From Mesotoga prima MesG1.Ag.4.2 (GTDB lineage: Bacteria; Thermotogota; Thermotogae; Petrotogales; Kosmotogaceae), in contig NC_017934.1 of NCBI RefSeq assembly GCF_000147715.2, positions 868,001 through 932,000 on the forward strand: DNA of 64,000 nt, written 5' to 3'. Position numbers and translations under genes: made by a program. The notes under the pieces were generated by a model. The model worked only from the letters and a program-made list of their open reading frames with translations. It was not told the DNA's origin and did not search any database. Below are positions 20,258 through 25,048 of the stretch, piece by piece; the first letter of the stretch is position 1, and every line of letters begins with the position of its first letter.

Positions 20258-21151
20258 CTAATGAAGGTCGTTAGCTATGTATCCACTCTCAGGCAGGCAA
20301 ACATCGTAAAGCCAGTTCCACGACTGAGCACACTCGGTTGAATCCATTTCGAAGTGTGCGACCGCATATCCCCCTGCAGGAACAATCATCTTTCCAATAT
20401 CACCGTCTACTCTTGTGTCTTGAGGAACTGTAATGCACATGCTCAGTCTCAGCTTTTCCTCTTCAGTCACTTCCGGATTATCGTGGTAAATGATGAGAGA
20501 ACTTGCGCTCTTCTTTTCCAGAAATCCTCGAGGACCTGCCCAGGAACAGAGTTTGTTGAACAAGGTTTCGAATAGTTTCTCATCACCGGCACAAGGACCT
20601 ATGTAGCGGACATAAGCAACCGTACTCTCCTCAAAATTCACGGTATCTACTCTCTCGGCTTTTTCCCATATTCATCCTCCTAAAAAAACTGTCGATGCTA
20701 CGATTGTGGAGGCGGGAAAGAATGTTGGGCGATCTACATTGCCTTCGAAAATACCTAAATTGCTTTCAGTCACTCCGCTATTGATCTTATTGGGTTTCTC
20801 ATTTTTCCACTGGAGTGGATTCATTCCAAAACGCTTCTTGATACTTCTGCTGAGCGATGATCCGCTGGCGAAACCGCACTGATCTGCGACCTGAGCAACT
20901 GTACTATTGGGATCGTTTGTAAAGAGTGTAACAGCTTTTCCAAGCCTTGTTCTCCATATGAACTGGAAGAGGGTGTTTCCAGCGGAGGCATGGAAAATTC
21001 TGTGGAAGTGATATTTCGAGAATCCCGCTACATCTGACAGCTCATCAAGCGTGAGTGACTCTGACAGTTAATATCCTATGTAGTCCATTATCTCGTTTAT
21101 TCTTGATATGCAGACGCCATGTAAAAGGTGCTCAGGGATGAACTGATTCAT
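20258..21151 (-). pseudogene. AraC-type regulator with GyrI-like domain, interrupted by two stops
   Basis: Read from ATG 21151 (AAAGGA upstream) the single frame gives a complete AraC regulator: first helix-turn-helix (ESLTLDELSDVAGFSKYHFHRIFHA), second (VAQVADQCGFASGSSLSRSIKKRFGMNP), then a GyrI-like effector domain (STVAYVRYIGPCAGDEK to GYIANDLH). An in-frame TAA falls after MDYIGY and a TGA after TVFLGG, both inside otherwise intact family sequence and without any frameshift. The last 127 codons could still be made from GTG 20641, but that start has no well-placed ribosome site. Either recently inactivated or sequence errors; readthrough is unlikely. Confidence 0.8.
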
Positions 21152-21682: not shown

Positions 21683-21712
21683 TTGACTTTTGATTATTTT
21701 GTGTGATATATT
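21683..21712 (+). promoter_or_regulatory. promoter of the small-ORF array
   Basis: TTGACT (21683-21688), 18-base spacer, TATATT (21707-21712), preceded by about 250 bases of A/T-rich DNA. The predicted start near 21719 leaves a leader of about 35 bases to the first small ORF. Confidence 0.65.
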
Positions 21713-21753
21713 ATGAATGTAGAAGCATAGATTAATAAAAAGGAGGTGTGAGA

Positions 21754-21846
21754 ATGAGAAAAGTGATAGATCCAGCGTCCGTTGAAAGAGCAGTCAGAAA
21801 GTTCAAAGAGAAACTGGCAAGAGAGTCCTTCCCACATTACCCATGA
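21754..21846 (+). CDS. small-ORF array, member 1 (30 aa)
   Basis: ATG at 21754 follows AAAGGAGGTG at an ideal distance. The peptide begins MRKVIDPASVERAVRKF and ends SFPHYP: basic, one likely amphipathic helix (eight Arg/Lys, four acidic). Family unknown. It shares size, charge pattern and a V-E-R element with the downstream members (VDR/IDR). The strong ribosome site in a promoter-terminator unit is the main reason to call it real. Confidence 0.6.
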   Translation: MRKVIDPASVERAVRKFKEKLARESFPHYP

Positions 21847-21860
21847 AGGAGGTGAGGAAG

Positions 21861-21959
21861 ATGAGAGGAAGAGAAAGAAAGGTTCACTACAGAGAAAGGG
21901 AGATCTACTCAAACATCGTTGAAGATTCAATCAGATCAAGAGTAATGAACATCAGATAA
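21861..21959 (+). CDS. small-ORF array, member 2 (32 aa)
   Basis: ATG at 21861, 14 bases after the stop of member 1, with AAGGAGGTGAGG upstream. Begins MRGRERKVHYREREIYSN, ends SRVMNIR; nine Arg/Lys. The Y-S-N element recurs in member 3 (VYSNLL). No known family. Confidence 0.6.
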   Translation: MRGRERKVHYREREIYSNIVEDSIRSRVMNIR

Positions 21960-21975
21960 AAGAGGAGGAGCATGT

Positions 21976-22077
21976 ATGAAATTCAGAGAGAAGAGAAACT
22001 TAAAGGCAATAGACAGATTGATCTAGAGTGAGAGAGAGACTGTTTACAGCAACTTACTTATCAATCCGAGATTTTGA
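21976..22077 (+). pseudogene. small-ORF array, member 3, with in-frame TAG
   Basis: AGAGGAGGAG precedes ATG 21976. The frame reads MKFREKRNLKAIDRLI, then TAG (22024-22026), then SERETVYSNLLINPRF and TGA. It aligns without gaps to member 4 across both halves (KRN-x-K-x-[IV]DR; NPRF end), the TAG falling where member 4 has Ser. So it is a copy inactivated by one nonsense change, or a 16-aa product. A different-frame ATG at 21972 would give a 19-aa peptide. Confidence 0.6.
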
Positions 22078-22099
22078 TTGGAGAAGAGGAGGAATGAAG

Positions 22100-22192
22100 A
22101 TGAAGAAGAGAAACATGAAGGAAGTAGACAGGATGGTTTCACAGGTAAGAGAGAGTGCTTTCAGTTCCTTGATGATGAATCCCAGGTTCTAA
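22100..22192 (+). CDS. small-ORF array, member 4 (30 aa)
   Basis: Start ATG at 22100 chosen over 22094 because GAGGAGG (22086-22092) is only 1 base from the first but 7 from the second. Peptide MKKRNMKEVDRMVSQVRE followed by SAFSSLMMNPRF: a basic N-terminus, a helical middle and the NPRF end shared with member 3. Confidence 0.65.
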   Translation: MKKRNMKEVDRMVSQVRESAFSSLMMNPRF

Positions 22193-22216
22193 CTCCAAAG
22201 AGAAGGGGGTGAGATC

Positions 22217-22315
22217 ATGAGAAAGAGAAGAGAGAATTTAGCGGATGTGGATAGATACATTGACAAGATAAAGACAGATGCACTGAAGAGATACATGAGC
22301 TCTATCCACAACTGA
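22217..22315 (+). CDS. small-ORF array, member 5 (32 aa)
   Basis: AAGGGGGTGAG precedes ATG 22217. Peptide starts MRKRRENLADVDRYIDKI and ends KRYMSSIHN. It shares the basic start, the VDR element at the same distance and the length with members 3 and 4. After it, AAGGAGAGG and a TTG at 22337 could allow a further 11-codon frame ending at 22372, which I do not call. Confidence 0.6.
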   Translation: MRKRRENLADVDRYIDKIKTDALKRYMSSIHN

Positions 22316-22370
22316 AAAGAAGGAGAGGCGTTCAAATTGATAGAATCCAAAGAAATACTGGATACCAAAT

Positions 22371-22417
22371 AACTGAAGACCCATTCCATAACTTTCCAAA
22401 GGGTCTTCAGTTTTTTA
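22371..22417 (+). terminator. terminator of the small-ORF array
   Basis: Perfect 12-bp stem AACTGAAGACCC / GGGTCTTCAGTT with an 18-base loop, running into TTTTATT. It closes the unit opened by the promoter at 21683. Confidence 0.9.
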
Positions 22418-22477
22418 TTGTAGAGTCTGTGGAAAGTGATGGCCGTTTCTCTGCTATGGCAGATCAGTTATAGAATG

Positions 22478-22839: not shown

Positions 22840-23477
22840 AAGAACCGCTGTACGCTGAATGATCAGTTGTAAGTTGTCAGTTCTAAGTTGCAGTGTGCCA
22901 AGAAGGCGAAGAAGGAAACTTCTAGCCATGCTTAATTGAAGATGAGGGAGGGCCCCTCGAAGCCGCCATGCAGGTGGAGGCTTCAAACCACCGTAAGCTG
23001 CTGTGGTAAAGAGCCATGGTAGTGAACGTTACGGGAAAAGGCGGGACAGTGATCCCGTCAGGTGAGTACCAGAGGAGACGAATACAAGTGAACCACCGTG
23101 AACGTGTCGTAAGAACTACTAGTGTCATCAAAACCGGGGGGTGCAACTATCCCGGGATAAGTCTGGAGGAAACCTGCTTACTGTCCAGATGGTGACCGGC
23201 ATATAGGTGGCGTGACCCTGGTACAGGCTTTGATTAGGAACTTGGGAACCTGGATCTGGATGTTAAGGGAAAAGCCGCAAGTGGAAGACCCACGAGGGTG
23301 AAAGTACCGATGCCAGATTCAGGGGCGGAACAGTCCGTAGTAGTGATGAAGCTCCTGTAATGGGAGTGGAGCGAAGGGACTGTGTTATCCAGTTTTGTAG
23401 GTTAGTCAACCAACTCTGTGCAGACAACCGAAAGGGAGGAACTGTGAACAGAGACAAGGAAGGAGCCAACAGACAAG

Positions 23478-24714
23478 ATGAGGTCGTATGAAATCCCCAA
23501 GAAAGTAGTACTGGAAGCATTCAAGAAAGTGAAAGAGAACAGAGGGGCAGAAGGAATAGACGAGGTAAGCCTGGAAGAGTTCGAAGCCGATCTTGACAAC
23601 AATCTCTACAAGATTTGGAATCGAATGACCTCGGGCAGTTACTTTCCACCTCCAGTAAAAGCGATAGAGATAGAAAAGAAGAGTGGAGGCAAGAGAGTAC
23701 TGGGAATCCCCACAGTGGGGGACAGAGTAGCCCAGATGGTAGCCAAAATCTATCTCAATCCCCTGGTAGATCCATACTTCCATAAGGACTCCTACGGATA
23801 CAGGGAGGGAAAGTCAGCGATAGATGCCCTTGAAGTAACGAGGCAGAGATGCTGGCGGTATGACTGGGTACTGGAATTCGACATTAAAGGACTGTTCGAC
23901 AACATAGACCATGAACTACTAATGAGGGCAGTCAAGAAACATGTGAAGATTCCATGGCTAATACTCTACATAGGGAGATGGCTGAAAGCACCCTTTTCAG
24001 AAACCTAATGGAAGAGTCGAAGAGAGGAGCAAGGGAACGCCACAGGGAGGGGTAATAAGCCCTGTACTGGCTAACCTCTTCATGCATTACGCCTTCGACA
24101 AGTGGATGGAGAGAACTCATCCGGATAAGCCCTTTGCCAGATACGCAGATGATGGAGTGATACACTGTAGAACTCTGGAGGAAGCCCGGCTTCTTCTTGA
24201 AAGTCTCAAAGAAAGAATGGAAGAATGCAAACTAAAGCTTCATCCAGAGAAGACCCGTATTGTCTACTGCAAAGACGATAAAAGGAAGGGCGAGTATCCA
24301 AATACAAGCTTTGACTTTCTAGGATACACCTTCAGAGTCCGTAGCTGCAAAGCCAGAAACGGGAGGATCTTCTACAGCTTCACCCCTGCAGTGAGTGAAC
24401 AGGCAAAGAAGGCGATGAGACAGAAGATCCGGAGAATGAGACTTCAAACCAAGTCATACCTGAGTATTGAAGAACTCTCAGAAAGAATCAACCCGGTAAT
24501 AAGAGGTTGGATAAACTACTATGGACACTTTCGCAGATTTGAGATGTATACAGTACTGAGTCGGCTAAACAAAGCCTTAGTTCAGTGGGTAAGAAACAAG
24601 TACAAGAAAAGGAGAGGTCGTACAAAAGCGGGTAAATGGCTAGAAACTCTTGCTCGCAGGGAGCCTCGTCTATTTGTACACTGGACAATGGGGATATTCT
24701 ATACGGCTGGATAA
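23478..24714 (+). pseudogene. ltrA: group II intron reverse transcriptase/maturase, one frameshift
   Basis: The protein is about 411 aa when a single extra T in the TTTT run at 23994-23997 is removed; then LKAPFQKPNGRVEERSKGTPQGGVISP reads through correctly. As it stands the first frame ends at 24008. RT motifs: GSYFPPPVKAIEIEKK, GKRVLGIPTVGDRVAQM, FDIKGLFDNIDHE, GTPQGGVISP and the catalytic FARYADDG; maturase/domain X: RGWINYYGHFRRF. There is no HNH endonuclease domain after it. Could be a true inactivation, a sequencing slip, or slippage on the T run. Confidence 0.9.
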
Positions 24715-24717
24715 TGG

Positions 24718-24751
24718 GAGCCGGATGAATCGAGAGATTCAAGTCCGGTTC
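24718..24751 (+). ncRNA. group II intron domain V
   Basis: 34-base hairpin with the canonical catalytic layout: stem GAGCCGGA paired with TCCGGTTC and a GAGA tetraloop (ATC-GAGA-GAT). This is the most conserved part of the ribozyme. Confidence 0.9.
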
Positions 24752-25048
24752 TGAGAGAGCCTGGGGGTGAAATCCCCCTGGGCTACTCACCAGCATAAGA
24801 ACCGCTGTGCGCTGGGAAGATTAAGAATCCGTTGGCTTTTGCGGGTTGCTGTTTTCTGGGAAGAGAGTGAGAGAGTGAAGAACGGTTCTTCGTTGGTCCA
24901 GGATTACGTCATGCTTGAAATTGTTTCAGAATCCAGTTCCTGCATTGTGATTTTGGTTCCCATTCTTGCAACTGACAACTTGCAACTTGGAACTGATCTT
25001 TTGCTCTTACGAACCCCCAACTTCCGACCGGAGCCACGGCCTTACAAC

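Follow-up and report, generated by a model that had tools for sequence, protein, structure and literature searches.

What does a run of five very short open reading frames, set between one promoter and one terminator in the genome of Mesotoga prima, encode? The frames lie in the window, by which we mean the whole 64,000-nt stretch of DNA that was analysed, and a first-pass annotation had described there a TTGACT-N18-TATATT promoter, a ribosome site for each frame and a perfect 12-bp terminator, all of which are present in the sequence. The features of the unit are as follows.

21683..21712, + strand: promoter, TTGACT at 21683-21688, 18-nt spacer, TATATT at 21707-21712; extended -10 TG-A-TATATT with TG at 21704-21705 (from the sequence)
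21741..21746, + strand: Shine-Dalgarno AGGAGG of member 1 (from the sequence; copies compared)
21754..21846, + strand: member 1, 30 codons, MRKVIDPASVERAVRKFKEKLARESFPHYP; kept in six other full copies and the partial copies of G009 and G001; pS.50 versus pN.09
21847..21852, + strand: Shine-Dalgarno AGGAGG of member 2 (from the sequence)
21861..21959, + strand: member 2, 32 codons, MRGRERKVHYREREIYSNIVEDSIRSRVMNIR; from conservation and pS/pN; resembles the third Kosmotoga-type peptide, K3
21963..21968, + strand: Shine-Dalgarno AGGAGG of member 3 (from the sequence)
21976..22077, + strand: register of member 3, 33 codons long elsewhere but cut by TAG at 22024-22026 in the window, for a predicted 16 codons, MKFREKRNLKAIDRLI (copies compared; the profile match at G000:C1:889976-890074 likewise contains one TAG)
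22087..22092, + strand: Shine-Dalgarno AGGAGG of member 4 (from the sequence)
22100..22192, + strand: member 4, 30 codons, MKKRNMKEVDRMVSQVRESAFSSLMMNPRF; from conservation, pS/pN and an AlphaFold2 helix
22203..22209, + strand: Shine-Dalgarno AAGGGGG of member 5 (from the sequence)
22217..22315, + strand: member 5, 32 codons, MRKRRENLADVDRYIDKIKTDALKRYMSSIHN; from conservation and pS/pN
22371..22416, + strand: intrinsic terminator, perfect 12-bp stem 22371-22382/22401-22412, then T6 (from the sequence)
22429..22442, + strand: GTGGAAAGtgATGG, a motif kept between copies and complementary to CCATaaCTTTCC, the loop of the terminator (copies aligned)

The promoter is kept in every Mesotoga copy that reaches that far and has the same form in other genera, and a whole-genome search for the pattern TTGAC-N16-20-TATATTATGAATGT returned two sites, both of them array promoters. 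Each of the five start codons of the unit is preceded by a GGAGG/GGGGG-type site, and the terminator stem and loop are kept in all full copies. Within 22383-22442, the loop is complementary to a conserved GGAAAGtgATGG right after the T-run, and homology between copies can stop exactly there; with one G005 copy it ends at 22442, at the motif complementary to the loop.

Four of the five frames are intact in the window, as ATG frames with Shine-Dalgarno sites (30, 32, 30 and 32 codons), while 1000 dinucleotide shuffles of the unit gave a mean of 0.033 such frames and a maximum of 2. Refutation had been sought in a lack of conserved frames or in drift like that of non-coding DNA; instead, all five frames recur in other copies with their starts, stops and Shine-Dalgarno sites, as does the terminator, and dN/dS is about 0.1. 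Between the window and G004, pS is 0.47, pN 0.074 and dN/dS 0.10, and dN/dS is 0.13 against G003 and 0.11 against G007. Substitutions are concentrated at third positions, and every peptide taken separately has pS well above pN; all five frames are thus under purifying selection, with dN/dS about 0.1 between species.

The first annotation, an array of five frames of 30-33 codons, holds in general but fails for member 3 of the window copy, because that frame stops at TAG (22024-22026) after 16 codons; codon 17 is TAG in the window copy only and GAG in all other copies covering it. Elsewhere, member 2 carries a 2-nt frameshift near its end in G004 and is truncated in G008, and the start of member 5 in G003 is ATT, not ATG, so that single members can evidently decay. 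Taken together, the comparisons show that 21683-22442 is one transcription unit, whose five paralogous products (four of them intact) have about 30 residues each and are held under purifying selection.

How the members are related was examined by pairwise alignments against composition shuffles. Significant links (p 0.001-0.006) join member 1 to K2, member 2 to members 4 and 5 and to K1-K3, member 3 to member 4, and member 4 to member 5, so that the paralogy first proposed for members 3-5 extends to all five. The DR element and NPRF ends described earlier are real in the sequence, and belong to a common outline of a basic start, then [IV]DR-x-[IVL]-[ED]-x-x-[KR], then a PRF, PRGF, YRF or similar end in several types. 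For proteins of 30 residues, homology was judged from profiles, shuffles and, for the ArsR-linked genes described below, position.

When 103 Thermotogota genomes were searched with profiles, clear relatives turned up in the family of the window only. Within the genus, eight of the nine other genomes contain matches to the unit (four near full-length, the rest partial, several at contig ends), the longer ones with 68-93% identity. Genus g3 (G011, G039, G040) has a three-gene array of types K1, K2 and K3, and two-gene units occur in g4 (G012, two of them) and in g2; these arrays have TTGAC...TATATTAT-type or similar promoters, Shine-Dalgarno sites of their own and usually a terminator. Genome contigs scanned for the K3 motif gave only two confirmed loci, which belong to a single Thermotogae MAG. 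Weak profile matches outside the family (G043, G092, G064 and others) look like chance, several of them lying inside long open frames, and profiles of K3 and member 1 found no confirmed relative among viral contigs. A phage origin was also considered and rejected, PHROGs giving nothing better than E 0.12 for array members.

The first-pass annotation had named no known family, in agreement with Pfam, NCBIfam, PHROGs and PADLOC, none of which gave a family above cut-off for the array peptides; the best E value in the PADLOC defence-system search was 0.032, for one peptide. A search of PDB sequences with the family profile returned short helical segments only (E 0.16 and worse). A literature search found no paper on the array peptides and no expression or proteomic data. 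A transcriptome study of K. olearia states that its isolation procedure selected against RNAs shorter than 200 nt (PMC5674127). By these comparisons, the peptides form a real, strongly conserved and previously undescribed family of tiny proteins (about 30 residues) of the Kosmotogaceae-like lineage.

The array peptides have GRAVY values of -0.7 to -1.2, 33-44% charged residues and a net charge of +2 to +5, and no signal peptide or hydrophobic segment was seen in them by inspection. AlphaFold2 modelled member 4 (G000b copy) as one helix over residues 6-26, with a mean pLDDT of 84. The suggestion that the products are amphipathic helices is weakly supported: members 1 and 4 exceed composition shuffles in maximal helical moment (p about 0.03), but members 2, 3 and 5 do not.

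A second copy of the 801-bp unit, 95% identical, is present in the window's genome (G000:C1:2162695-2163494), and two array sites were compared. Site A adjoins nagA, identified from its sequence by inspection: in five Mesotoga-type copies the array lies downstream of nagA on the same strand, and in three g3 copies the two converge. Apart from nagA, which occurs in differing orientations, no gene stays next to an array site across genera, and the adjacency of nagA may be just inherited position. The neighbours at site B, that of the window, are an AraC-type gene and a sensor kinase with response regulators; G005 and G009 share this site. Copies within one genome are 100% identical over 79 bp in G005, 97% over 221 bp in G009, 95% over 920 bp in G000 and 99% over 679 bp in G039, against mostly about 71-88% at the same site between species. 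Since within-genome copies are more alike than same-site copies between species, and both sites are old, the alignments show a unit often kept at two old sites and homogenised within each genome by concerted evolution. In several drafts the copies stand at contig ends, as is typical of collapsed repeats.

The surroundings of the arrays hold several further features. In the window, the AraC/GyrI-type regulator at 20267-21151 (minus strand) is interrupted by two stops; its G005 counterpart at that site is unbroken, with 325 codons. A group II intron occupies about 22890-24800 of the window (RF01999 at 22944-23063, domain V at 24716-24791), with its reverse transcriptase split into two ORFs (23478-24008 and 24082-24714), and this stretch was not found at the same G005 site. 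Upstream of the arrays at L048, L050 and L052 lies a divergent gene that seemingly has an Asn-rich leader peptide (INLNNNNNGPG...) and a terminator, as in attenuation by asparagine supply.

Comparison of neighbourhoods agreed with the earlier remark that no processing or export gene is adjacent: no immunity, export, modification or neutralising gene is common to the array flanks, which end at contig ends in several drafts.

Single tiny genes, X and Y, of 32-35 residues, are present in Mesotoga- and Kosmotoga-type genomes. In the window's genome the X/Y locus is as follows.

G000:C1:2015458-2015817: X/Y locus of the window's genome (L118; others are L119-L126, L155 and L157)

In nine of nine loci compared, one X/Y gene is divergent from two tandem genes of about 355 residues. 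Both proteins of the pair in the window's genome have a C-terminal ArsR winged helix (PF01022, 46.7 and 25.0 bits, cut-off 22; PF12840 above cut-off in both), while their N-terminal part of about 270 residues has no Pfam match. For one modelled protein of this type, a PDB fold search matched the C-terminal domain alone, to winged-helix structures and never with E below 0.01. Of the family's 17 genomes, 14 have the ArsR-type pair (G038 being counted for at least one clear member), and the rest of the phylum yielded one partial match. In the divergent genera represented by G012 and G038, a tiny gene is also divergent from the pair.

All these tiny-gene promoters carry a dyad, GTTTGACANNNRTCNAAC, over the -35 region (with one mismatch in G012). 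In 12 of 13 whole genomes, exact matches to it occur only at tiny genes, one or two in each; G012 has none that is exact, and the controls have none. Significant similarity to X was seen for members 4 and 5, and similarity to the G038 peptide, also significant, for member 5. These similarities show the array peptides to be related to single tiny genes that are divergent from a conserved ArsR-type pair under a putative operator of their own. At the array promoters the GTTTGACANNNRTCNAAC operator was not found, and a functional link between the arrays and the ArsR-linked genes therefore depends on the similarity of 30-residue proteins. These relatives, like the nonsense codon of member 3 and the second array copy, are absent from the first-pass annotation.

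Like ArsR-family regulators with divergent targets (SmtB/ArsR, CzrA, HlyU), the pair has a C-terminal ArsR winged helix and an operator overlapping the -35 of the divergent gene. Unlike them, it consists of two tandem proteins of about 355 residues with an unmatched N-terminal part of about 270 residues, and the only operator-bearing targets found are genes for proteins of about 32 residues.

Two observations concern these loci and their relatives. A C-rich stretch (CACCCCCCCTTTTTCCCCACGGA-like) followed by a terminator lies 3' of the ArsR-divergent tiny gene and is conserved across genera (L155 in G012, L157 in G038, L123 in G040 and L118 in G000); its complement resembles G-rich ribosome sites, and it could be an RNA element, a candidate 3' UTR regulatory RNA. 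As well, at L051/L074 (G011) and L162 (G039) an operon has, in this order, a short leader ORF with a terminator, several tiny ORFs (one of them array-family-like) and an ABC transporter ATPase gene.

What the products do can be proposed tentatively. The explanation that we favour, at somewhat less than even chances, is that they are soluble, cationic, mainly one-helix proteins of the cytosol, abundant and dose-dependent, which dock on a larger partner and so serve as mini-proteins of a regulatory or adaptor kind. The products would stay in the cytosol. Synthesis in large amounts is proposed because the promoter and the ribosome sites are strong and two homogenised copies are kept. They would act in proportion to dose, on a partner that could be protein or RNA; the ArsR-linked relatives would exert this activity in switched form, and the arrays would be its expanded and apparently constitutive form. 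Conserved frames and Shine-Dalgarno sites with changes mostly at third positions, the paralogy of five members, the 2-3-gene arrays of other genera and their like promoters, low hydrophobicity, the predicted helix at 6-26, the two homogenised old sites, the ArsR-linked relatives and the lack of an export, modifying or neutralising neighbour are in favour of docking, while the modest amphipathicity, the arrays without the ArsR operator and the decay of members (3 here, 2 in G004 and G008) count against it. A more elaborate proposal, which we regard as rather unlikely, is a self-contained intracellular control system, in which the ArsR-type pair with its unmatched N-terminal domain would control only genes for helical proteins of about 32 residues, whose transcripts carry the conserved C-rich 3' element, and in which the same family, amplified into homogenised arrays, would buffer or antagonise the circuit, possibly by binding the regulators.

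Several alternatives were weighed against docking. The peptides could be mini-proteins associated with nucleic acid or the ribosome, for example reduced counterparts of a ribosomal protein, small cationic helices binding rRNA or mRNA. In agreement with this are the basic N-termini, the high predicted synthesis and the keeping of two homogenised copies, as dosage-critical genes tend to be kept; one member-1 variant also has a weak match to bS21 (17.8 bits, E 0.003), whose first helix it locally resembles. However, that match is gone for the window's own member 1 and for the G002 variant, the member-1 profile loses it against PDB chains, and the peptides contain many acidic residues, so we consider this role unlikely. 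Membership in bS21 (PF01165/TIGR00030), the form in which the earlier option of a small subunit-like protein was tested, was rejected: the variant scores 17.8 against a cut-off of 27 bits and 16.4 against 28.95, no other member matches, and the peptides are about half the length of bS21. Moreover, bS21 is absent from all 31 relatives searched, with or without arrays, which argues against a lineage-specific bS21 replacement.

Alternatively, the five (or two to three) different helices might associate with one another as a small hetero-oligomeric coiled coil or bundle that serves a structural purpose. The co-production of several related but non-identical members, the single AlphaFold2 helix and the short helical segments that were the best PDB-sequence matches (E 0.16 and worse) would suit such a bundle, but the number of gene copies ranges from one to five, single-gene forms exist, and members decay while the array persists, all of which makes it unlikely.

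A multi-peptide leaderless bacteriocin, or a unit like the phenol-soluble modulins, would produce unprocessed cationic helices of about 30 residues that are exported and membrane-active against competitors. In aureocin A70 and garvicin KS, three to four leaderless peptides of 30-34 residues and net charge +4 to +5 are encoded together, with GRAVY values of +0.40 to +0.71 (PMC6131525). The architecture here is the same (five peptides of 30-33 residues, net +2 to +5) and, as in aureocin A70, garvicin KS and the cereucins, with their 3-4 leaderless cationic peptides of about 30 residues in one operon, each is translated separately. Where those of aureocin A70 and garvicin KS are hydrophobic, the peptides here are polar (GRAVY -0.7 to -1.2), rich in acidic (D/E) as well as basic residues and kept across genera, and whereas leaderless bacteriocins have immunity or export genes where studied, no transporter or immunity gene is common to the array flanks. 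Strong conservation across species and the regulator-linked single-gene form argue further against a strain-variable weapon, and we hold this reading to be very unlikely. The staphylococcal alpha-type phenol-soluble modulin operon encodes tandem short leaderless helical peptides in one transcript, which are exported as surfactants; the arrangement is alike, but neither the composition nor an exporter has a counterpart here.

Precursors of intracellular pheromones (RRNPP/Phr-like), from which a C-terminal NPRF, SQPRGF or HYRF would be cut off as a signal, would likewise be short and multi-copy, with a C-terminal motif conserved in several members, but inspection revealed no secretion signal, no receptor or export gene is adjacent, members 1, 2 and 5 are without the motif and the whole peptide is conserved, leaving this highly improbable. 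Least credible is that the RNA itself functions, as a structured RNA or a ribosome-binding decoy, with the frames incidental: five strong Shine-Dalgarno sites and conserved 3' inverted repeats would fit it, but it is contradicted by the codon statistics (dN/dS about 0.1 with a third-position excess), Rfam gives no match in the unit and spacer lengths vary while the frames are kept, so that it is largely refuted.

RiPP-like precursors, one of the options first listed, are disfavoured, no leader being seen by inspection, no modification enzyme being recognised among shared neighbours, no export gene being present and hydrophobicity being low. The option of short-peptide toxins, as far as secreted toxins are concerned, is disfavoured by the lack of a leader and of export genes and by low hydrophobicity. 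A comparison with toxin-antitoxin systems, covering protein genes and Rfam, found no second conserved protein gene and no Rfam RNA in the unit. The leaderless-bacteriocin, RiPP, secreted-pheromone and bS21 readings are all disfavoured, and regulatory or structural mini-proteins remain from the earlier options.

The array peptides add a family of proteins of about 30 residues, with dN/dS about 0.1, often kept as homogenised duplicate arrays and present in none of the libraries used. Genes kept as homogenised duplicates are usually dosage-critical, and loss of a whole array should therefore be costly, which makes the function testable. Finally, the regulator pair, for which tiny-protein genes are the only targets with a recognisable operator, offers a handle on the role and timing of the family.
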